Source of the DNA: a virus
DNA length: 57,088 nucleotides
Virus record (IMG/VR): IMGVR_UViG_3300044619_000511
Coordinates: 1-57,088 of that record
Strand: one strand, 5' to 3'
In this document: positions 1 to 56,016 of the stretch, one piece after another
Layout: each line of letters starts with the position of its first letter
How positions within the stretch are numbered: position 1 is the first letter of the stretch
Position numbers and translations under genes: made by a program
The notes under the pieces: generated by a model
What the model was told of the DNA's origin: nothing
Databases searched by the model: none
What the model saw: the letters and a program-made list of their open reading frames with translations, nothing else

Positions 1-73
1 ATTCTTTTTTGTCGACATCAAATACCTTTGTCTTGATACCTTCTACGTGTAGTCCTATTTTCTCTATCCTCAT
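1..73 (-). CDS. Partial hypothetical protein, runs off left edge
   Basis: This is the first 24 codons of a minus-strand gene starting with ATG at 73. It overlaps the stop of the upstream 22-aa ORF in an ATGA junction, which supports the start. I recognise no family. The frame leaves the window with one spare base. Joined to the right edge of the window it continues in frame into the 51-codon open frame at 57086-56931, which would make a 76-aa protein. This is the main sign that the sequence is circular. Confidence 0.7.
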   Translation of the reverse strand, partial: MRIEKIGLHVEGIKTKVFDVDKKE

Positions 74-138
74 AAACTTAGTAAAGTAAGAATGGTTACG
101 ATTAATAATACGATTGGTAGGGTGAAGCCCTTTTTCAT
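70..138 (-). CDS. 22-aa hydrophobic microprotein
   Basis: A very small ORF starting with Lys-Lys-Gly-Phe-Thr and followed by about 16 hydrophobic residues, so probably a single membrane-spanning peptide. Its start overlaps the upstream stop (ATGA at 135-138) and its stop overlaps the next start (ATGA at 70-73). That double coupling is the main evidence that it is translated. The N-terminus looks superficially like a type IV prepilin leader (KGFTL) but the chain is too short to be a pilin. Its function is unknown. Confidence 0.55.
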   Translation of the reverse strand: MKKGFTLPIVLLIVTILTLLSL

Positions 139-335
139 TCAATCTTTTTTGAGATGAAGATTCCGTTGGGTGTACGCTCTACGATTAACCCATTCTTTTC
201 CATCTCTGCCAGTTGCTCATCCAGTGGCATGATCGGGCCGTCAGTTTTAGAGAACCCTACGTTGTCGGGGATCTTACCACTGGCGGTCTTCTTTACTTTG
301 ATAGTTGACTTCTTGTTGAATGCGTTGTCGTTCAT
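135..335 (-). CDS. Hypothetical 66-aa protein
   Basis: A charged soluble protein with no family I recognise. The N-terminal half is Lys-rich, and the C-terminal half (about residues 38-66) reads as a short helix followed by a beta hairpin. It is coupled to its neighbours by ATGA overlaps on both sides. A CAAAACCCC block lies directly before the start, the same leader motif seen before several other left-arm genes. The coupled position within the leftward operon makes it a likely real gene. Confidence 0.75.
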   Translation of the reverse strand: MNDNAFNKKSTIKVKKTASGKIPDNVGFSKTDGPIMPLDEQLAEMEKNGLIVERTPNGIFISKKIE

Positions 336-580
336 GGGGTTTTGTTTTTGTGTAAATTAATAAGATTTTGTTTCAGCTCATCAAGGTAGATAATAATGTT
401 ATCCACATCGTGCTTATTGACTTCATCTCGTAACTGGCTTTCAGTTTCCAGTCCCTTGTCGTACCACCTAGCATCATCGCTCATCCGGTAGTAGAAGTCG
501 TGGTCAATAACTCTTTTCAGTAACTCTTTCATTTGCAAATAGTTGTTTAAATCCTCTATAAACTCCTCGCTTGTAGGCAT
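332..580 (-). CDS. Hypothetical 82-aa acidic protein
   Basis: Acidic, helix-rich protein with no recognised family, ending in an ATGA overlap with the next gene. The ATG at 580 overlaps the upstream gene by 77 bases. An internal ATG at 532 (beginning MKELLKRV) would cut the overlap to 29 bases, so the start is uncertain. Composition and codon use fit a coding frame throughout. Confidence 0.65.
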   Translation of the reverse strand: MPTSEEFIEDLNNYLQMKELLKRVIDHDFYYRMSDDARWYDKGLETESQLRDEVNKHDVDNIIIYLDELKQNLINLHKNKTP

Positions 581-797
581 CAGTCTCGTGGTTGAATGCT
601 CCCGCCAGTATCAGAGAGGTGACTGATACATACTTCGTTTCAATGTAGTGGAGGAGATTGGAGAATGTCTTACCATCTCTCAGCCTATCCAGTAGTTCTT
701 CGGGGGACGTAACTGGGACATCATCGAACTCATTGATTCGCTTTGCGTTGATATGCGCATCAGCGATTGCCTTGATTTCGGGGGTGATACGTTTCAT
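504..797 (-). CDS. Hypothetical 97-aa protein
   Basis: Soluble mixed alpha/beta protein with no recognised family. It starts at ATG 797, four bases after the stop of the upstream 54-aa gene. Its last 26 codons share sequence with the start of the 82-aa gene in another frame, and both frames look protein-like there. Two TTCGGGGG octamers (699-706 and 777-784) lie inside it. Confidence 0.7.
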   Translation of the reverse strand: MKRITPEIKAIADAHINAKRINEFDDVPVTSPEELLDRLRDGKTFSNLLHYIETKYVSVTSLILAGAFNHETDAYKRGVYRGFKQLFANERVTEKSY

Positions 798-800
798 AGA

Positions 801-965
801 TTATTGTTTGGTTACTAATCCTAACTGGACGGCGGTATCGGCATCGGCTTCGCTACCAAATTCAATGGTGGCTGGATACTCTCCTTCGGGGGAGGTGATT
901 TCAAAGTCGAGGTCTTCATCCATTAGATACATAATGTCAGATCGGGAGTGTGCTAGGTACTTCAT
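801..965 (-). CDS. Hypothetical 54-aa acidic protein
   Basis: A short, very acidic ORF from ATG 965 to TAA 801-803, rich in Asp and Glu. It is tightly spaced between two other minus-strand genes, four bases after the upstream stop and four before the next start. No family is recognised. The tight packing and clean reading frame support translation. Confidence 0.6.
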   Translation of the reverse strand: MKYLAHSRSDIMYLMDEDLDFEITSPEGEYPATIEFGSEADADTAVQLGLVTKQ

Positions 966-969
966 ATGT

Positions 970-1143
970 TTATAATTTTTGGTAACGTTTCCATCCTACT
1001 TGCTCCTCATCCTCACTGGCGAGTATCCTATACTTATCGCGTAGTTCGGAACGTAGCTTTCGGTCTTTTGTTTTGTGATACTCATCCCACACCTTGTCAA
1101 TCTCTGACTGGGGGGTTAGTTGCTGATAGATTTTCGATTTCAT
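970..1143 (-). CDS. Hypothetical 57-aa charged protein
   Basis: Lys/Glu-rich, helix-prone small protein from ATG 1143 to TAA 970-972, with no recognised family. It follows the leftward operon pattern of tight packing. Its first codons overlap, in another frame, the end of the possible 30-aa ORF at 1097-1189. It probably acts as a small helical host-takeover or accessory factor, but nothing in the sequence shows this directly. Confidence 0.6.
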   Translation of the reverse strand: MKSKIYQQLTPQSEIDKVWDEYHKTKDRKLRSELRDKYRILASEDEEQVGWKRYQKL

Positions 1144-1189
1144 TTGCTAGTTTTATAATGTCATCGATTGCTTCTTGTATCTCTTTCAT
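1097..1189 (-). CDS. Possible 30-aa helical peptide
   Basis: A tiny ORF whose ATG at 1189 overlaps the stop of the 88-aa gene in a TAATG junction, a common translational coupling. The peptide is acidic and predicted to be a single amphipathic helix. It overlaps the start of the 57-aa gene by 47 bases in a different frame, so one of the two may be spurious. No family is recognised. Confidence 0.4.
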   Translation of the reverse strand: MKEIQEAIDDIIKLANEIENLSATNPPVRD

Positions 1190-1455
1190 TACCATTGATT
1201 TTCGGTGAAGAATTTAATTGCATTTTGCAGACTGCCAGTTGTCCCTTCCTTTACCTCAGTGCGACTGGGGATGCGGTTGCCGTAGTAGTCTCGGTGTGAC
1301 TGCTTGGGTAGGAAACACGCCCCCGACCTTAGTAACTCCATGGCCGTCCTTCCGACTGCCCCCTCCATCTTCCATGCAGTGCCGGATTCAATTAGTGACT
1401 GGATTTGGTCATAGCCTTGCTCTCGTTGGTGCTTGCGGATAGTTTGAATGTGCAT
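1189..1455 (-). CDS. Hypothetical 88-aa basic protein
   Basis: A basic, mostly helical protein with no recognised family. It starts at ATG 1455, about 19 bases downstream of RNA element A (1474-1519), behind the leader CTAACCAAACCCTA. It ends in TAATG, which may start the 30-aa ORF. It is the last gene of the series in which each cistron is preceded by a two-stem RNA element. Confidence 0.7.
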   Translation of the reverse strand: MHIQTIRKHQREQGYDQIQSLIESGTAWKMEGAVGRTAMELLRSGACFLPKQSHRDYYGNRIPSRTEVKEGTTGSLQNAIKFFTENQW

Positions 1456-1473
1456 ACATTAGGGTTTGGTTAG

Positions 1474-1519
1474 GAACTGGCATCCGTATCGATCGGATTA
1501 CGATTCTCTCTGCCAGTTC
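1474..1519 (-). promoter_or_regulatory. Two-stem RNA element A (minihelix-like)
   Basis: Read on the minus strand: 8-bp outer stem GAACTGGC/GCCAGTTC (1519-1512 with 1481-1474), a 13-nt unpaired 5' linker beginning AG and containing CG, a 5-bp inner stem ATCCG/CGGAT, and a 7-nt loop ATCGATA. Acceptor-like stem, T-arm-like stem and CGA at loop positions 3-5 match tRNA minihelix geometry. It fills the spacer between the 75-aa and 88-aa genes. Confidence 0.75.
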
Positions 1520-1524
1520 GGGAG

Positions 1525-1752
1525 CTATTGAATAATCTTTAGTACTCGATGACCATAAAATGCATAGCCCTCAAATTCAATAAAATTACTAACTGGATCG
1601 GAACAAGAGGTTACCTTCAGCAACTGGCCCCTCTTAGGCCCATTCTCTAAATCTTCAACATCAATTGCTACAACTAAATCGCCTTCAAATAATTGTGTTC
1701 CGTCAATGTCATTGCAGTATTGGTTAACTGGAGTTTCTGATAGATTAGACAT
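1525..1752 (-). CDS. Hypothetical 75-aa acidic beta-rich protein
   Basis: A small protein with an alternating pattern of short strands (LFEGDLVVAID, RGQLLKVTSC, EFEGYAFYGH, RVLKII), consistent with an SH3-like or small beta-barrel fold. That pattern resembles short phage proteins of the YopX/KOW-like sort, but I cannot assign a family. The start at 1752 lies behind the leader CTAACCAAACCC of RNA element B. RNA element A follows its stop. Confidence 0.75.
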   Translation of the reverse strand: MSNLSETPVNQYCNDIDGTQLFEGDLVVAIDVEDLENGPKRGQLLKVTSCSDPVSNFIEFEGYAFYGHRVLKIIQ

Positions 1753-1771
1753 AGTATTTGGGTTTGGTTAG

Positions 1772-1812
1772 GAACTGGTTGCCATCGAAGGCCACGGCAT
1801 ATCCGCCAGTTC
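1772..1812 (-). promoter_or_regulatory. Two-stem RNA element B (divergent copy)
   Basis: Minus strand: 7-bp outer stem GAACTGG/CCAGTTC (1812-1806 with 1778-1772). The inner stem is weaker than in the other copies: GTGGCC/GGCAAC with one mismatch, closed by the loop TTCGAT. It has CCCCC immediately before it and CTAACCAAACCC after it. This is the least regular of the six copies. Confidence 0.6.
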
Positions 1813-1822
1813 GGGGGTGTTC

Positions 1823-2053
1823 TTAGAATGCGAGGCGCTTTAACTCATTGAGCATTGATTCTCCGCCATCGAATACTCCGTTGTAGGTTATCCAATATTG
1901 GAGTAATTCAAAGTCACTATACTGATCAAGAAGGTCGTAGCTTTCCTTATAGGTCTGATGTAGTTGCGCCGAGTCTATCTCGGCCATGTAATCCAACAAA
2001 TATTTTCTAAAGTCTTGGCACTTTTGGTTTGGTGGGGCGATGCATTTAAACAT
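1823..2053 (-). CDS. Hypothetical 76-aa protein
   Basis: A helical protein with an N-terminal Cys-containing stretch (MFKCIAPPNQKC); no family is recognised. I take ATG 2053 as the start. An ATG 54 bases upstream at 2107 is in frame, but it would translate through RNA element C. The chosen start keeps the element, its leader and the start codon in the same order as in the other cassettes. Confidence 0.7.
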   Translation of the reverse strand: MFKCIAPPNQKCQDFRKYLLDYMAEIDSAQLHQTYKESYDLLDQYSDFELLQYWITYNGVFDGGESMLNELKRLAF

Positions 2054-2072
2054 AAAATAGGGTTTTGATGAG

Positions 2073-2115
2073 GAACTGGGAGCGGAGTCGAACCGCTCTG
2101 ATACCATGCCAGTTC
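2073..2115 (-). promoter_or_regulatory. Two-stem RNA element C (T-arm-like loop)
   Basis: Minus strand: 7-bp outer stem GAACTGG/CCAGTTC, a 10-nt linker containing ATGGT, a 6-bp inner stem GAGCGG/CCGCTC and the 7-nt loop TTCGACT. That loop is a canonical tRNA T-loop sequence. CCCCCC precedes the element and TCATCAAAACCC follows it. There are no D or anticodon arms, so it is not a tRNA gene. Confidence 0.75.
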
Positions 2116-2122
2116 GGGGGGA

Positions 2123-2218
2123 TTATAATGCCCGATTAGAGGGTAAAATAACGTATCCGTTTTTGATAGAAAAGAACTCACGGATTGAATTGCGGAAGGA
2201 CTTGATTGCTTTTGACAT
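2123..2218 (-). CDS. Hypothetical 31-aa basic peptide
   Basis: A short Lys/Arg/Phe-rich ORF from ATG 2218 to TAA 2123-2125. It sits in the same cassette arrangement as its neighbours: RNA element D, then the CAAAACCCC leader, then ATG, and RNA element C after its stop. That shared context is the main reason to call it a gene despite its length. No family is recognised. Confidence 0.55.
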   Translation of the reverse strand: MSKAIKSFRNSIREFFSIKNGYVILPSNRAL

Positions 2219-2237
2219 TGTTAGGGGTTTTGATGAG

Positions 2238-2283
2238 GAACTGCGGTCGGTTTCGCTCCGACTTCGGTCTTACCTCGCAGTTC
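2238..2283 (-). promoter_or_regulatory. Two-stem RNA element D (covarying stem)
   Basis: Minus strand: 8-bp outer stem GAACTGCG/CGCAGTTC, 13-nt linker AGGTAAGACCGAA, 5-bp inner stem GTCGG/CCGAC and 7-nt loop AGCGAAA. Compared with copies A-C the last outer pairs change on both sides (GG/CC to GC/GC), and the inner stem is different but still fully paired. This covariation is good evidence that the RNA structure is selected. Confidence 0.78.
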
Positions 2284-2290
2284 GGGGGGG

Positions 2291-2782
2291 TTAAAATTCC
2301 CAGTCATAATGATACTCTGCTTGTCCAAAGAGAATGTTTACCTTAGGATACCTCCTTTTAGCCTTAGTGAATCCCTTGACCAGTTTAAGGTCGTTGTTAT
2401 CATCGTAGAGGCCTATTTCACTGCAGCGAATCCATAGGTCAACACTATTTTTAAACTGCTCATAGAACGATTCCTCAAAAACGATATTCTCAATCACCTC
2501 TCTCCATGCGCCATTGCGATAGATGAGAGTGCGTTTGTATCCATTGGGATTAGGAGTCAGTTCCCAATCTTGGTGTCCCATACCTTCCGAATTGGGCTTA
2601 GCCGTGTGATTCATTTCGCGGATGACACACTGCTTACCATCAGCGGATACCTCCAGTACTTCAGCGGGATGGCGGTCTGAATAGGAGAGGAGAGTAGCAC
2701 CTTTGCCTACCTCGGGGGTAGTCGAATTGTTGCCCATAAGGTAGTTGGTGAAGCTACCTTCGAGTCTTCTAGTTTGTCTCAT
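2291..2782 (-). CDS. Hypothetical 163-aa protein
   Basis: The largest unassigned left-arm protein. Residues about 20-95 read as a beta-rich module (GATLLSYSDRHPAEVLEV, KQCVIREMNH), and the C-terminal half is mixed alpha/beta and ends in aromatic residues. No family is recognised. The start is taken at ATG 2782, because an in-frame ATG at 2824 would lie inside RNA element E. The leader before 2782 contains ATCAAACCCC as in the other cassettes. Confidence 0.75.
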   Translation of the reverse strand: MRQTRRLEGSFTNYLMGNNSTTPEVGKGATLLSYSDRHPAEVLEVSADGKQCVIREMNHTAKPNSEGMGHQDWELTPNPNGYKRTLIYRNGAWREVIENIVFEESFYEQFKNSVDLWIRCSEIGLYDDNNDLKLVKGFTKAKRRYPKVNILFGQAEYHYDWEF

Positions 2783-2801
2783 TGTAAGGGGTTTGATTCG
2801 T

Positions 2802-2845
2802 AACTGGGGGTGGTATCGCTCCACCTTCGCACATTGCTCCCAGTT
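2802..2845 (-). promoter_or_regulatory. Two-stem RNA element E
   Basis: Minus strand: 7-bp outer stem AACTGGG/CCCAGTT, 13-nt linker AGCAATGTGCGAA, 5-bp inner stem GGTGG/CCACC and 7-nt loop AGCGATA. Linker and loop closely resemble those of elements A and D (AGnnAnnnnCGwA and AkCGAwA), while the inner stem has a different, still fully paired sequence. CCCCCG precedes it on the transcript. Confidence 0.78.
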
Positions 2846-2853
2846 CGGGGGAC

Positions 2854-2937
2854 TTATCTACAAATTTGGTCTTGCAGTAAACCTACTACATACCCTACCA
2901 CTAGTAGGACAAGTAATAACTGAATAACTGGTTTCAT
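2854..2937 (-). CDS. 27-aa membrane microprotein
   Basis: A tiny ORF with a continuous hydrophobic core (LLLVLLVVGYVVGLL, about residues 7-21), so probably a single-span membrane peptide. Its ATG at 2937 overlaps the stop of the 64-aa gene (ATGA), and RNA element E lies directly after its stop. No family is recognised. It is the second hydrophobic microprotein of the left arm, with the ORF at 70-138. Confidence 0.55.
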   Translation of the reverse strand: MKPVIQLLLVLLVVGYVVGLLQDQICR

Positions 2938-3128
2938 AGAGGAGATAATTTAGCTTGTTTACAAAGACGCTCCCATTTAAGGTCACGTAGGATTTGCTTA
3001 GAGTCCCCGCCTAGTTCCACGAGGATTTGTTTCACGCGTGTGTGGGTGGAAATAACGGCTTCCGTTCTGCGGATTAACTGGCCATTGGCCTTAGCCGAGA
3101 ATAGGGGTGTTTTAATTCTCTTGCGCAT
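2934..3128 (-). CDS. Hypothetical 64-aa basic protein
   Basis: A strongly basic helical protein, possibly nucleic-acid binding by charge alone. No family is recognised. It overlaps the end of the 44-aa gene by 17 bases and is joined by ATGA to the 27-aa membrane peptide, so three small genes share one cassette between RNA elements F and E. Confidence 0.65.
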   Translation of the reverse strand: MRKRIKTPLFSAKANGQLIRRTEAVISTHTRVKQILVELGGDSKQILRDLKWERLCKQAKLSPL

Positions 3129-3246
3129 TGCTTGGAGATTGAAGGGTTATTGAATCTGATTGAAAGGATACTACTAGCCATCCGTCGTATAGATACTGGG
3201 CAGCTAGTTGTTGTCCTTTTAGGGTGGTGAGGTTTATGCTTATCAT
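3112..3246 (-). CDS. Hypothetical 44-aa protein
   Basis: A small protein with two predicted strands around a short helix (GQQLAAQYLYDGWLVVSFQS). No family is recognised. The start is taken at ATG 3246, just downstream of RNA element F and an AACAAAACC leader. An in-frame ATG at 3351 would put the element inside the coding region and overlap the PAPS-reductase-like gene. Confidence 0.6.
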   Translation of the reverse strand: MISINLTTLKGQQLAAQYLYDGWLVVSFQSDSITLQSPSNAQEN

Positions 3247-3264
3247 AGCTGAGGTTTTGTTAAG

Positions 3265-3307
3265 TAACTGGGAGGGGAGTCGAACCCCTCCTAAGACCAT
3301 CCAGTTA
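3265..3307 (-). promoter_or_regulatory. Two-stem RNA element F (T-arm-like loop)
   Basis: Minus strand: 7-bp outer stem TAACTGG/CCAGTTA, 10-nt linker ATGGTCTTAG, 6-bp inner stem GAGGGG/CCCCTC and T-loop sequence TTCGACT. The outer stem begins inside the TAA stop codon of the PAPS-reductase-like gene. The first pair is U-A here and G-C in the other copies, another compensated change. It is closest to element C. Confidence 0.75.
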
Positions 3308-4066
3308 TCCGCAGACGAACTCTGCGACCTTGAACTGCGCATCACCCTCAACGATATCCTTCAGCCAGTTTTTCTCCTTCCCACTCATAAGAAGGGTAAA
3401 GCCCAGTCTCTCCTCAGTTTCAACGTATCGCTTGTATAACTGGGGGTTATGCTTCGCGGCTACCTTGATATCGCTCTTGTTACTCATAATGCAAAACACA
3501 CAAGATAGACGGCTCATGCCGAGGTCATAGGCGTAGTGTCTCTTCTGACCTACGGACTCAATTTCCGCCCATACTTCCTTCACGCTCCAGTCAAAGATGG
3601 GTAGCCAGTCATACCACTCACGACCTGCTTTGCTATTGCGCTCATTGAGACGGAATGGGATTTGCTTTGCTCGTGCGGATGATTCTTCTGCACGAATCCC
3701 CATACAATTCACAATGAGAGTTTTACCTCGCTCCTTGCACCAGTTACGGATAAATTTCTCGATTGGCTGACGCTTGAGGTCGCTTGTACACTGGCGATAA
3801 CTGGGGGATGGGAACATCCCACGATGCTCAACCATCTCAAAGAAGGTTTTACCGGCACGAACTAAATGCGCCTCTATGCCCAATGAATTCTCTTGTACGT
3901 GACTCCAACACCCCTCCCAGTCAACTTCGGGAAGGTCTGCGTGAACGATTACCAATTGGTCGTGAGGAACTACCTTGCTAAGAAATATCTTCATCGCTTG
4001 GCTATCCTTTCCTCCGGAATCATTGATAAAAAAGATTGCACCTTTGTCGATTAATTCTTGAATCAT
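3305..4066 (-). CDS. PAPS reductase family PP-loop protein
   Basis: A 253-aa protein of the phosphoadenosine-phosphosulfate reductase / adenine nucleotide alpha-hydrolase family. It has the PP-loop SGGKDS at about residues 17-22 and a conserved Cys in QCTSDLKRQP (about 93). A CxxC pair lies at about 189-192 (SCVFC). Such Cys sets are seen in Fe-S-binding relatives and in DndC-type DNA sulfur-modification proteins. Phage members may act in sulfur metabolism or in nucleic-acid thiolation; the sequence does not decide which. I take ATG 4066 as the start because the longer frame (ATG 4174) would translate through the hammerhead ribozyme. It is the first gene of the leftward operon after the structured leader. 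Confidence 0.85.
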   Translation of the reverse strand: MIQELIDKGAIFFINDSGGKDSQAMKIFLSKVVPHDQLVIVHADLPEVDWEGCWSHVQENSLGIEAHLVRAGKTFFEMVEHRGMFPSPSYRQCTSDLKRQPIEKFIRNWCKERGKTLIVNCMGIRAEESSARAKQIPFRLNERNSKAGREWYDWLPIFDWSVKEVWAEIESVGQKRHYAYDLGMSRLSCVFCIMSNKSDIKVAAKHNPQLYKRYVETEERLGFTLLMSGKEKNWLKDIVEGDAQFKVAEFVCG

Positions 4067-4079
4067 AACTGGGGTTTTG

Positions 4080-4128
4080 GGTTTCGGCCTGCTTGGCCTC
4101 ATCAGTACGGATAGCGTATCCGTAGACC
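4080..4128 (-). ncRNA. Hammerhead ribozyme (type III layout)
   Basis: Read on the minus strand, every core position is present: cleavage triplet GTC (4127-4125), stem I of 8 bp TACGGATA/TATCCGTA with loop CGC (4124-4106), CTGATGA (4105-4099), stem II GGCC/GGCC with loop AAGCA (4098-4086), then GAAA (4085-4082). Stem III has only three clear pairs next to the core (GGT with ACC); it may continue after an internal loop by pairing ATGAC (4135-4131) with GTTAT (4069-4065), which would include the start codon of the PAPS-reductase-like gene. Self-cleavage is predicted between 4125 and 4124. Stems I and II are closed, so stem III is the open end. Confidence 0.82.
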
Positions 4129-4490
4129 TTGTCATTTCGGGGGTAGTCAATGGCGATAAATCGGCCAACAACATCTGCCCCAGTAGGTGAGTCCTTTCGG
4201 TTCTCTCACCCCAACACCCTAACTACAACTTGTGTAGGTTTGGCGCGACCTTGTGTGAACACTGGGAGTCGGTTCGTTACCGCCAGTGTGCCTGTGTTTA
4301 TGTGCCGAGGAAGGCATCCTCGAGTCTCTCTCGCTCAACACGATTTTATCGAGACCATCGCTTTGCATTTATCGTGGTTTGGTGTCCGTCCGTCCATCGT
4401 ACTCACCTAGTCTGGTGGATGGGTGGGGGTGCATTGCCCTAACACGTTGTAGCGAACATTTGAAAGAACTGCGGACTCATTGTCGAATCC
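4129..4490 (-). ncRNA. Structured untranslated leader of the leftward operon
   Basis: About 360 nt with no convincing gene between the leftward promoter and the hammerhead. On the minus strand it folds into successive hairpins: CGAT/ATCG around AAA, GAGGA/TCCTC, ACACTGG/CCAGTGT (4288-4260, the same size as the minihelix outer stems), CTACA/TGTAG, and GGTGAG/CTCACC (4210-4186) with an inner CCGAAAGG. It has a higher GC content than its flanks. Short plus-strand frames overlap here in several frames, as expected of noncoding GC-rich DNA. The function of the leader is unknown. Confidence 0.5.
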
Positions 4491-4494
4491 GATG

Positions 4495-4527
4495 CAAACA
4501 TAGGGTGGCAGGGTAACTACTTCCAAA
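4495..4527 (-). promoter_or_regulatory. Bacteroidetes-type promoter, leftward operon
   Basis: On the minus strand a -33 box TTTG (4527-4524) is followed after 21 bases by a -7 box TATGTTTG (4502-4495), matching the Bacteroidetes consensus TTTG-N19/21-TAnnTTTG. Transcription would begin near 4488 and run through the structured leader and hammerhead into the left-arm genes. Poly-A/T tracts lie just upstream. Confidence 0.6.
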
Positions 4528-4651
4528 TTTTTTTACAACTTTTTTTAAAAATACGTATTCTTACTTAGAATTTGGATTGAGAATCAAGCAATTAAGCAAA
4601 AAAATAATTTAGGGGTAAGTAAGGTCGGGAGGGTAAAATGGGGGTATCGGC

Positions 4652-4727
4652 TACTAAAAGCATTAGTAATCAATACTAAAGAAATTAGCTGGTTGTCAAT
4701 GAAAGCAAATTGCTAAAGAGATTAGCA
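4652..4727. promoter_or_regulatory. Three 17-bp operator-like palindromes
   Basis: Three imperfect palindromes with 6-bp arms and 5-bp centres: TACTAAAAGCATTAGTA (4652-4668), TACTAAAGAAATTAGCT (4674-4690) and TGCTAAAGAGATTAGCA (4711-4727). The consensus is TRCTAA-5-TTAGYA. They lie between the winged-helix gene and the leftward promoter, so they are likely binding sites of a dimeric regulator. The third could also form an RNA hairpin after the upstream gene. The remaining sequence from 4528 to 4750 is AT-rich with no gene. Confidence 0.55.
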
Positions 4728-4750
4728 AAGGCGGGGGGTTCGGGGGAATA

Positions 4751-5083
4751 CTAGAGCCGTTTATTAAGTAGATAGCTCCGTATATAGGATAAGTACTCTC
4801 TCCCTAGAGGAGTAATAGAATACCGCTTGTGTGTCTCCCTAATAGCAAGGCCAAGAAGACAAAGAGAATTCAAGTAGTTCCAAGAGGAACGATTGTCTGC
4901 CCGCTTAACATGGGGGCGATGCAAAAAAACAAAATCAGCTAAGGCCGTTTGACTGGTAGTGCCTAGCCTACGAAGGCCGTATAAAAATCGTAACTGGGTA
5001 TAGTTTAACTCAGCAATTCCAGTACGCTGAGATGCACGATAAATGGCAGTATCTACACACAAAAAGAATTTCTCAATCTTCAC
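4751..5083 (-). CDS. Winged-helix DNA-binding protein (putative regulator)
   Basis: A 110-aa protein that reads as a MarR/PadR-sized winged helix. It has helices over about residues 25-60 (YTQLRFLYGLRRLGTTSQTALADFVFLHRPHVKRA). A recognition-helix-like segment follows (SSWNYLNSLCLLGLAI), and then a wing ending in the common motif YSITPLGREYL (about 90-100). It is coupled to the upstream 40-aa ORF by ATGA. It sits beside the three operator-like palindromes and between the divergent operons, so it is the best candidate for the switch regulator. A match to a named family needs a profile search. Confidence 0.65.
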   Translation of the reverse strand: MKIEKFFLCVDTAIYRASQRTGIAELNYTQLRFLYGLRRLGTTSQTALADFVFLHRPHVKRADNRSSWNYLNSLCLLGLAIRETHKRYSITPLGREYLSYIRSYLLNKRL

Positions 5084-5202
5084 GGATGAAAGGTTTTTTG
5101 TAAAGGGAGGAGGGGGGCTATTGTATCTTTAAACACACACGCATAATCGCCACATTCCCAATATGTTGCAAGGTTTTTATCCAGTTCCGTTTCCCTCTTC
5201 AT
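5080..5202 (-). CDS. Hypothetical 40-aa protein before the regulator
   Basis: A short ORF joined by ATGA to the winged-helix gene. The frame is open upstream to an ATG at 5445, which would give 121 aa. The upstream part has an odd composition and spans a promoter-like box (TAATTTTG, minus strand 5372-5365), so I prefer ATG 5202. No family is recognised. It may serve mainly to couple translation of the regulator. Confidence 0.45.
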   Translation of the reverse strand: MKRETELDKNLATYWECGDYACVFKDTIAPLLPLQKTFHP

Positions 5203-5352
5203 TCCCTCCCCATTGATTACCCCACTACCTCCTTCACAACCTAACGCAATATGTGTCAGCCAGTTAGGTATTATATGGGGGTTATATGGTATTACCCGTT
5301 CAGCCCTAAAATCGTTTTTGGAACTGCCAAAAATACCCCCACCCAGTTTGCG

Positions 5353-5372
5353 TTTTGCGATTCGCAAAATTA
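5353..5372 (-). promoter_or_regulatory. Promoter with overlapping palindromic operator
   Basis: A perfect palindrome TTTTGCGA-T-TCGCAAAA (5353-5369) overlaps a minus-strand -7-like box TAATTTTG (5372-5365). A repressor bound here would block transcription of the 40-aa and winged-helix genes, which fits autoregulation. No clear -33 box is seen. The sequence between 5203 and 5352 has no gene that I trust. Confidence 0.45.
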
Positions 5373-5517
5373 TCAAAAGCCACTTAAAATAATGTATTAC
5401 CCCCACTCTTTTCCCACACACATCTGATCTATAAACCCTTGGCATAAACTCTCGATTTTTTGTAGTCCAAATTTAGGCTTTATTTGTTGGTTATAGACGG
5501 GTGTGAAAAACTTGTAT

Positions 5518-54262: not shown

Positions 54263-54342
54263 AGACCAGCCTGAGAACAAGCTGGTCTATTGCTGGAGTT
54301 TACCAAACCAAAACCCCTTTTGTTAATAATTAAACCAGCAAT
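54263..54342 (-). promoter_or_regulatory. Paired hairpins in spacer upstream of the 128-aa gene
   Basis: Minus strand order: ATTGCTGG (54342-54335) pairs with CCAGCAAT (54296-54289), immediately followed by AGACCAGC/GCTGGTCT (54288-54281 with 54270-54263). CCAGC and GCTGG each occur twice, so the segments can also pair crosswise. That gives two competing folds, as in attenuators. The first arm begins within the stop codon of the exonuclease gene. Confidence 0.45.
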
Positions 54343-55337
54343 TAGGTTAAGCGCACATTGAATTGTTTGCGCCAAGTTATTTTACCATTCGGTAGTTCCA
54401 TTATCTGAGCACCACCATTCTGTTCCATGTACTGCTTCAGTTGATTACCGTAGAGTAGCTTTGCGGACTCCCAAGATTTTATGGTTTCGTTAATGCGTAC
54501 ATACTCTTCGGCCCACTCGGCTTGTTCTTTATCGCCTTGTATTGTAATATCATTCTCGCGGTCCTTATGCTTGATGGAGATGAAGGCATTGAAGTCCTCA
54601 GAGTTATCAGCCGGCGGTTCGAACTGAGCAGCGATACCGTATATCTCTTCTTTATCAGATGCACCTGCCTTGATGATTGCCTCTCGTGCAGCGATGACTC
54701 TCCCTCTATGTTCAGCTGCTTTGTTAAGTATTGCCTGTTGGATATCAGGATCGGCATCAAATGTTTTAACTAGCATATCCTGACCATCTACCTGCATACA
54801 TATCTCTGCATATTTAAGACCAGTCACTAGCATGTAGTGATTCATCTGAGCGATGTAGTTCGGGGGAACGCCATCAATATAAGAATCAACAGTCATCTTA
54901 CCCACGTTCTTAATCTCCAGTATCCCCTTCTTCTTACCATACACCGGGTGCTGTGTTACCATACCATCTAGGTTGGCGAATAGCATAGGGTACTCAGGAT
55001 TCTCGATGATGGCCTTTACCTTTTTGAATTTACGAACCTTATTCTTATGGATTACATTCTGAATAAAGTTCTCTTCACCATCCCAGTACTGCCACATCTC
55101 AGCGATGGTATCCTCCAGCATTTTGCCGAAGGCCATCTGCCGGTTCATCTTGGTAGGCAGTAGGTCCATACCAATTGACTGGTAGAATAGATTGATTGGG
55201 GACTTCCATTTGTTCCATCCCAGTAGCGTACCGGCATCCGATCCGCCCACCATTCCCCGAGATGAAAACGACTGGCGTAATTTCTGCCAGTCGATCTCGG
55301 ATAGGTTCTTCGTGCTTGTCTGTTTAAGCTTTGGCAT
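54342..55337 (-). CDS. YqaJ-like viral recombinase / exonuclease
   Basis: A 331-aa nuclease of the lambda-exonuclease/YqaJ group (PD-(D/E)XK). GMVGGSDAGTLLGWNKWKS (from about residue 29) is the characteristic N-terminal motif. Asp124 in FANLDGMV and Glu141/Lys143 in GILEIKNVG form the catalytic set. It resects double-strand ends to make single strands for the Rad52-like annealing protein encoded upstream, whose gene it overlaps by 14 bases. Together they form a single-strand-annealing recombination pair. Confidence 0.9.
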   Translation of the reverse strand: MPKLKQTSTKNLSEIDWQKLRQSFSSRGMVGGSDAGTLLGWNKWKSPINLFYQSIGMDLLPTKMNRQMAFGKMLEDTIAEMWQYWDGEENFIQNVIHKNKVRKFKKVKAIIENPEYPMLFANLDGMVTQHPVYGKKKGILEIKNVGKMTVDSYIDGVPPNYIAQMNHYMLVTGLKYAEICMQVDGQDMLVKTFDADPDIQQAILNKAAEHRGRVIAAREAIIKAGASDKEEIYGIAAQFEPPADNSEDFNAFISIKHKDRENDITIQGDKEQAEWAEEYVRINETIKSWESAKLLYGNQLKQYMEQNGGAQIMELPNGKITWRKQFNVRLT

Positions 55338-56016
55338 CCTTGATTAGTTTGGTTAAGGTTGTTTTCTGTGCTAGGTTCAACTTGTACTTTGGTAGCGCTG
55401 CTTCAACGTCAGTAATCTTGCCTTCGCTGATAGCCTTTACCATTGCATCAAATTGCTTTGGTGATAATGCCGTTAGCTCGGGGGATTCAGGAACCTCAGG
55501 ACTGGGATTCGGCTTGGGAGCCTCCTGAGGAACCTTAGCTTGCGTCTTCCCCTTCGTGTTTATATGTTTGGTTAAATCCCATATACGCTCGCCTCTGTCA
55601 TCTACTGGGTTGCCATACTGGTCGCATTTTACTGTGACCATTTCTAGATCATAGAGGAATCTCCCGATCCCCCACTGAACTGCTGCCCTTTTAAATGCAT
55701 CGCTCGCTGCAGACTTACCAGCCTGCTCGTACATTTGGTCCTTCTCGTCGTTCTCGACTCTAGCCCCGCAGTCCCATCTCCAGACTACAGAACCATCATC
55801 TTTGGCTACACCTATACCAGCAAAAATGAAGCCATCTATCTCTTTAAAGTCTGATTGCCAGCCATTTCGACAGTGCTTGTCTAGTGTGTCCATTACTTGG
55901 CGTGCGTCAATGTAAGCCGAACAGAACGCCTTTGTCTTGTCTTTATTACGGCTTTGTACCCTCCATTGATAAGGGATCGGTTGCTTCAGTTGAGCAACTA
56001 AATCAGGTATGTTCAT
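55324..56016 (-). CDS. Rad52/22-like single-strand annealing protein
   Basis: A 230-aa protein. The core has YIDARQVMDTLDKHC, GIGVAKDDGSVVWRWDCGA and the signature AGKSAASDAFKRAAVQWGIGRFLY (about residues 98-121), as in Rad52-type annealing proteins of phages. The C-terminal part (from about 150) is a Pro-rich linker followed by a helical tail (FDAMVKAISEGKIT). It anneals complementary single strands during phage recombination and is paired with the YqaJ-type exonuclease. Confidence 0.85.
   Translation of the reverse strand: MNIPDLVAQLKQPIPYQWRVQSRNKDKTKAFCSAYIDARQVMDTLDKHCRNGWQSDFKEIDGFIFAGIGVAKDDGSVVWRWDCGARVENDEKDQMYEQAGKSAASDAFKRAAVQWGIGRFLYDLEMVTVKCDQYGNPVDDRGERIWDLTKHINTKGKTQAKVPQEAPKPNPSPEVPESPELTALSPKQFDAMVKAISEGKITDVEAALPKYKLNLAQKTTLTKLIKDAKA

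Follow-up and report, generated by a model that had tools for sequence, protein, structure and literature searches.

Short gaps separate a run of small genes in the left arm of this viral genome, and six of these gaps had been noted to encode a stem with an inner hairpin that resembles a tRNA minihelix. What are these elements, and what do they do between the genes? In the following, the window is the whole 57,088-nt stretch that was analysed, and all positions are numbered on it. The TerL relatives of the virus are Flavobacterium and Cellulophaga phages and, judged by sequence, its host is likely to be a member of the Bacteroidota.

Architecture of the elements and their leaders

The left-arm genes in question are encoded on the minus strand, and all six elements lie between them in this mRNA sense. 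The coordinates originally assigned to the six spacers were verified, and each has an outer stem of 7–8 bp. An inner stem with a CGA loop, described before as a general feature with mostly 7 nt in the loop, is found with a 7-nt loop in elements A, C, D, E and F, but not in B, whose inner part instead branches into two short hairpins at a three-way junction. The division into two subtypes also stands: C and F have an ATGGT linker and a TTCGACT loop, and A, D and E have an AGnnAn..CGwA linker and an AkCGAwA loop. In RNA sense, the stop codon of one gene is followed by a C-rich spacer (not in F), GAACTGG or a variant of it, the one-sided linker, the inner hairpin and CCAGTTC; a leader similar to CUnAnCAAAACC then runs to the AUG of the next gene.

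Following the minus strand, a PAPS reductase-like gene (nt 3305–4066) is succeeded by element F (nt 3265–3307), a type I element scoring 43.9 bits with its covariance model. F starts with the TAA that ends the PAPS-reductase gene, so that its first three bases serve as the stop codon, and it accompanies this gene in relatives. The next genes are a small one of family f15 (nt 3112–3246) and f16 (nt 2934–3128), which together with a 27-aa ORF (nt 2854–2937) form a block ending in element E (nt 2801–2846; type II with a terminal G-A mismatch, 67.1 bits). A gene of family f19 (f12 in a second clustering; nt 2291–2782) lies between E and element D (nt 2238–2283; type II, 68.6 bits), which has a 19-nt leader to the ATG at 2218. 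Between D and C there is a 31-aa ORF (nt 2123–2218). Element C (nt 2073–2115; type I) consists of the acceptor GAACTGG, the linker CATGGTATCA and the T-arm GAGCGG-TTCGACT-CCGCTC, and has a 19-nt leader to the ATG at 2053; it scores 64.3 bits (E = 1e-17) with covariance model R2 and has a folding z-score of -3.53. A 76-aa gene (nt 1823–2053) separates it from element B (nt 1772–1812; type III), in which a hairpin CGG..CCG precedes GCC-TTCGAT-GGC, with a 19-nt leader to the ATG at 1752. Near-identical copies of B occur in contigs L038 and L048. After a 75-aa gene (nt 1525–1752) comes element A (nt 1474–1519), a type II-like minihelix made up of GAACTGGC, AGAGAGAATCGTA, ATCCG-ATCGATA-CGGAT and GCCAGTTC. 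It matches covariance model R1 at 57.3 bits (E = 7e-17), and its 18-nt leader runs to the ATG (1455) of an 88-aa gene (nt 1189–1455) with a weak match to DUF7417/phrog_3908.

When the window was scanned with a strict descriptor (xxCGAxx loop, stack of 13 positions, one-sided linker of 9–15 nt), the only matches were the five elements with a CGA loop, compared to a mean of 0.08 and a maximum of 1 in 60 dinucleotide shuffles of the window. Folding z-scores of the single copies A to F were -3.2, -1.7, -3.5, -3.5, -2.5 and -0.7, and the low values of B and F mean that single-sequence folding alone would miss these two.

With inner folds III–VI included, 72 elements were catalogued. The distance from the stop codon to the element is mostly 5–11 nt (mode 7), and that from the element to the AUG is usually 18–20 nt (mode 19), with a second group at 14–16 nt. 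Distances of 33–43 nt occur where the leader has an extra small hairpin, as read from the sequence. The leader is nearly free of G, and A is found at position -12 in 67/72 cases, at -11 in 57/72, at -13 in 56/72, at -6 in 52/72 and at -3 in 35/72. This pattern agrees with the translation-start determinants of Flavobacterium johnsoniae, which lie at -3, -6, -12 and -13 (PMC6847099). Intrinsic terminators and sigma-70 promoters were rejected as the identity of the elements: in a scan for these rather than for Bacteroidota-type promoters, none coincided with an element and the totals were not above those of shuffled sequences.

A wider RNA family with tRNA-like features

Kindred elements were detected in about 18 other Bacteroidota-type phage contigs and in one marine group. 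Three DNA patterns were used for searching, the first fixed on the outer arms only, the second on the linker and loop of type II with the stems left free, and the third on type I, and all recovered further copies in viral contigs. In the free-stem copies (L080, L082, L087, L089, L090 and L091) the stems are paired though their sequences differ, which is evidence for structure that was not put in by the search. The type II alignment (A2, 24 sequences) has 96.3% of its cells paired and 64 double-change cells, against 13.9 in shuffles; the corresponding values for type I (A3, 13 sequences) are 96.4% and 38, against 11.8. Both-side changes occur at 12 of the 15 pairs in A2 and 11 of the 13 in A3. 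These covariation values were reached by no shuffle and collapse in slid controls. Covariation extends to a mini-hairpin of two pairs within the linker of type II, where one pair occurs as G-C, C-G and A-U. The preliminary description had held that structure rather than sequence is kept, and had named an absence of covariation in wider alignments as refuting; covariation is present in both A2 and A3, and the claim finds strong support in these alignments together with the independent copies in other phages. Covariance models run on 24 whole viral records gave E-values down to 1e-22, and in records with several strong matches these lie close together on one strand.

The proposed likeness to a tRNA minihelix is strongly supported by the wider alignments. 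All 23 type I sequences share a linker GG and a G-UUCGAYU-C hairpin, and these invariant residues correspond to those forming the elbow of a tRNA. Type I thereby comes close to a perfect tRNA acceptor/T-arm, its GG linker resembling a D-loop: at the level of sequence and covariation it has the 12-bp acceptor/T-arm stack (a 13th pair is optional), the G53-C61 pair, the TTCRANT loop and the D-loop GG expected of a tRNA. The junction between the stems shifts (6+7, 7+6 or 8+5) while the total length stays constant. Elbow mimicry is thus firm for type I at the sequence level, and a three-dimensional D-loop/T-loop contact is predicted for it. The other inner folds stand behind one common outer stem; types II–VI have a one-sided linker or a three-way layout and a C-G in the loop without a canonical T-loop, and their elbow mimicry is putative. 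The anticodon arm is absent from the elements, ARAGORN does not recognise them as tRNAs, and real tRNA genes were rejected as their identity, with 0 found in the window.

Searches of Rfam 15 with the whole window gave 0 matches at gathering score, and at E ≤ 10 the region 1400–3400 returned only a tmRNA T-arm fragment. No earlier description of such elements was found in the open-access papers searched, which cover RNase P substrates in mRNA, phage and tandem hammerheads and PeSL cassettes. They appear to be an undescribed RNA family and so supply a structured family that is missing from Rfam; if cut, they would perform a familiar task by a new route. Among known isolates or deposited genomes, arrays are absent in elemo, immuto, phi38:1, phi14:2, phi4:1, crAss001, FCL-2, Panino and MW202828, and phi38:1, phi4:1 and Panino gave weak matches that most likely stem from the T-arms in their tRNA or tmRNA genes. 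A blastn match in crAssphage cr131_1 is one real-looking type I copy, which is not at a start codon. For prophage or host copies, a reading that was set aside, the search gave three pattern matches in genome contigs, all from unrelated bacteria. The idea that AACTGG enrichment reflects decayed elements was unsupported, L200 having AAGGCG arms without an enrichment of AAGGCG.

Hammerhead ribozymes and gene shuffling at the same junctions

Immediately upstream of the PAPS-reductase start, a type III hammerhead ribozyme is encoded on the minus strand (nt 4076–4132; predicted cleavage between 4125 and 4124). It matches RF00008 at 31.4 bits (E = 2.5e-4 in that stretch), under the gathering score of 48.5; by chance, the window would contain its core pattern 0.01 times, and the copy in L198 has compensatory changes in stem II. 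The preliminary description mentions neither this hammerhead nor the additional inner folds, nor the recombination breakpoints in the stem arms.

Types I and III hammerheads were present in 23/43 element contigs and in 0/80 control loci, a count that takes related contigs as separate and whose 23/20 split was tabulated by hand; because the element contigs are interrelated, these co-occurrences are not independent events. From a starting set chosen by hammerheads only, type I minihelices were found in 5/71 contigs compared to 0/80 controls (p = 0.02; one visibly false match, in L042, was set aside for the control figure), which makes them a minority feature of hammerhead-bearing phages. The cleavage site of type I hammerheads lies 19–22 nt from the AUG in 21/24 cases and, in an independent set collected by the hammerhead pattern alone, 19–24 nt in 76/104; the stop codon is commonly inside stem I or the core. 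At two genes the two kinds are exchanged. The PAPS-reductase gene is led by the hammerhead in the window and by a minihelix in L194/L131 and L196, whereas f15 follows element F in the window but a hammerhead in L047/L194.

Gene order varies among the window and its relatives (L130/L194, L131, L132/L196, L133 and L198 were compared), with breakpoints at the stem arms. Near-identity between the window and L130 extends up to and including CCCAGTTAC of element F and is lost directly afterwards. When element E of the window is compared with element F of L130, there is no relation ahead of CCCAGTTAC but near-identity beyond it. With both breakpoints at this motif, the block f15-f16-E is an exact insertion, closed by element E, relative to L130 and also to L131. 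Another case is the f19 gene, which in L130 and L131 is identical up to the stop codon and then followed by different elements. The window and L198 share an identical stretch of about 60 nt that comprises element D and its leader, and the genes on both sides are unrelated. Where the upstream gene is shared and the downstream gene differs, mean core identity of the elements is 0.67 (at least 0.92 in 5 of 22 pairs); where only the downstream gene is shared it is 0.55, equal to the background of 0.54. Only a small number of shuffling events was seen, and some of them are not independent of one another. The genome encodes a RecE-like exonuclease and an Erf-like annealing protein (nt 54,342–56,016, minus strand), a candidate engine for short-repeat shuffling, as well as a RusA-like resolvase. 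The repeated stem arms would double as short homologies by which gene units are shuffled, probably through this Erf/RecE-type recombination of the phage.

Proposed punctuation of an early message and related systems

The best explanation, to which we give a probability of about 45%, is that the elements are mRNA punctuation, interchangeable with hammerheads and putatively cut by host tRNA-processing enzymes. This suggests that these uncultured viruses cut one long early message into single-gene messages. Punctuation of a polycistronic mRNA had been proposed before, and that proposal is supported in part and indirectly, by the slots shared with hammerheads and the similar leader length. Since hammerheads cut themselves, a tRNA-like fold that takes their place is most readily understood as a substrate of host tRNA enzymes. 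On the mRNA-sense strand, each element folds as an acceptor/T-arm stack without an anticodon arm and could be taken for a pre-tRNA by the enzymes of tRNA maturation. RNase P would cut at the 5' side and RNase Z behind the base that pairs with G1, so splitting the early polycistronic transcript. The downstream message would retain a short, G-poor and unstructured leader, suited to the SD-less translation of Bacteroidota; a cut at the RNase Z position would leave CUCAUCAAAA..., near in length and sequence to the UUAAUCAAAA... of type I hammerheads. A fuller version is proposed tentatively: tRNA mimics lacking an anticodon, which host RNase P and RNase Z would cut, and self-cleaving hammerheads would be interchangeable marks that divide early polycistrons into messages of one gene each with a leader of about 19 nt, and would double as joints for gene shuffling. 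Several features count against punctuation: types II–VI lack a canonical T-loop, GAACTG is conserved in many phages beyond structural need (L200 has AAGGCG and others differ), the 3' flank of the elements is C-C-U, not CCA, G-U pairs are rare, and none of the isolated phages examined has an array.

These 19 nt would also be free next to an uncleaved minihelix. Spacing by itself therefore does not separate a cut element from an uncut one, and the leader lengths may be similar simply because ribosome loading requires an unstructured region. The elements could be insulators, compact folds that separate cistrons, block translational coupling or RNA decay and keep the next start single-stranded. 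The fixed distances to stop and start codons, the A-rich and G-poor leader and the diverse inner folds behind one outer stem would all fit, as would the tuning of F. johnsoniae translation by mRNA structure near the start (PMC6847099). This reading is possible but rather unlikely, as it leaves unexplained both the exact T-loop and D-loop-like residues of type I and the self-cleaving hammerheads in the same slots.

Conservation of loop and linker residues within each subtype could also point to an operator, a site through which an RNA-binding protein of the phage or the host, for example an enzyme that modifies T-arms, regulates the next gene. That many inner folds unlike one another are found at equivalent positions within a single genome, beside unrelated genes, makes this improbable, and no candidate protein was seen among the proteins scanned. 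The slots shared with hammerheads, and the reported enrichment of ribozymes near other ribozymes (PMC10085705), would be compatible with a new self-cleaving class; we consider this very improbable, as the conserved residues resemble the tRNA T-loop/D-loop contact rather than a catalytic core and vary between subtypes at the same position. Least probable is a DNA-level recombination site similar to an integron attC hairpin, with incidental RNA features. The elements often travel with the upstream gene, the junctions lie in the arms and G-U pairs are rare (6/538 outer pairs), but the T-loop, the D-loop-like linker and the exact start-codon distance are features of RNA and translation, and the junctions occur at both arms rather than at one base. 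No tyrosine integrase or other tyrosine recombinase, and no transposase, was present among the scanned proteins, which were part of those of the window; an integrase could act in trans.

Several known systems share individual features with the elements. The T-arm of element F resembles positions 347–363 of the tmRNA model (Rfam clan CL00001; 11.2 bits), but the likeness is limited to this arm and the score is far under the family threshold. Integron cassettes similarly combine a gene with a downstream folded site, whereas the present elements have RNA-type conserved residues and junctions at both arms. PeSL are promoter/stem-loop cassettes of T4-type phages that are reported to be a repeated intergenic module at points of gene shuffling (cited in PMC4503421). 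The elements likewise mark such points, albeit from few events among close relatives; PeSL join a promoter to a terminator stem-loop, whereas the elements showed neither in the sigma-70/terminator scan. Hammerheads are known from phages and, in tandem, from polycistronic RNA; HHphage lies 13 nt upstream of a start codon and is found in haloviruses HF1 and HF2, and the biological role of phage hammerheads has been described as unproven (PMC3088659). The minihelices occur in the same slots and the same genomes, with a similar short leader, but differ in having no match to Rfam hammerheads and, in all six elements of the window, no hammerhead core (CUGANGA ... GAAA, three stems). A second, unrelated fold in hammerhead slots points to a shared job, the defining of mRNA ends.

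In mitochondria, polycistronic transcripts are punctuated by tRNAs. Substrates of RNase P are also found in mRNA and phage RNA, such as T4 gene 32 mRNA and the M3 and C4 RNAs of phages (PMC11143913). Common to these and the present elements is a tRNA-like fold at a gene junction that may be cut by tRNA enzymes. The elements differ in lacking an anticodon arm, in being repeated at least six times in some genomes and in having several inner forms, and their cutting is a prediction. If true, they would explain the swapping of small early genes as plug-in units, and would represent a phage counterpart to the tRNA punctuation of mitochondria.

Arm sequences inside and outside the elements

The motif AACTGG/CCAGTT, which forms part of the outer-stem arms of the minihelix-like elements, is strongly enriched outside the elements in window 1-5445 (20 copies vs 2.77 expected), where the majority of copies lie within genes and on both strands. 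It is common in relatives too, e.g. contig L198. The copies in another viral contig, L200 (7718-7760 and 10499-10542), have a different outer stem, AAGGCGT/ACGCCTT, in common, and element arms thus seem to be homogenised inside one lineage.

Hammerhead ribozymes ahead of start codons

Start codons in many viral contigs are preceded by hammerhead ribozymes, with the stop codon being part of stem I or the core. They include the type III hammerhead of the window (4076-4132, minus strand), just upstream of the PAPS-reductase gene start, and those of contigs L087, L028, L067, L201 and L224-L294. A scan of viral contigs with a type I hammerhead pattern returned at least 120 matches. The stretch before the window hammerhead (4133-4520, minus strand) is mostly non-coding and carries additional hairpins, e.g. 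CACTGGCGGTAACGAACCGACTCCCAGTG; a portion of it, AACCGAAAGGACT, is kept in L047.

tRNA-like and type I elements in other phages

Contig L177 (MW202828.1) carries a pair of tRNA-like sequences with D- and T-arms at about 560-720, the second apparently without an anticodon arm; ARAGORN called neither. Type I elements, which are minihelices with a linker GG and a G-TTCGAYT-C hairpin, also occur in the 128-kb phage contigs L104 (4230-4273) and L121 (267-310), each ahead of a start codon, and L104 shows DNA similarity to Flavobacterium phage immuto. A lone type I element of a crAss-like phage (crAssphage cr131_1, NC_055902.1, 75022-75064, minus strand; L127, 2996-3038) is located between a gene and a tRNA-Leu and does not sit at a start codon.
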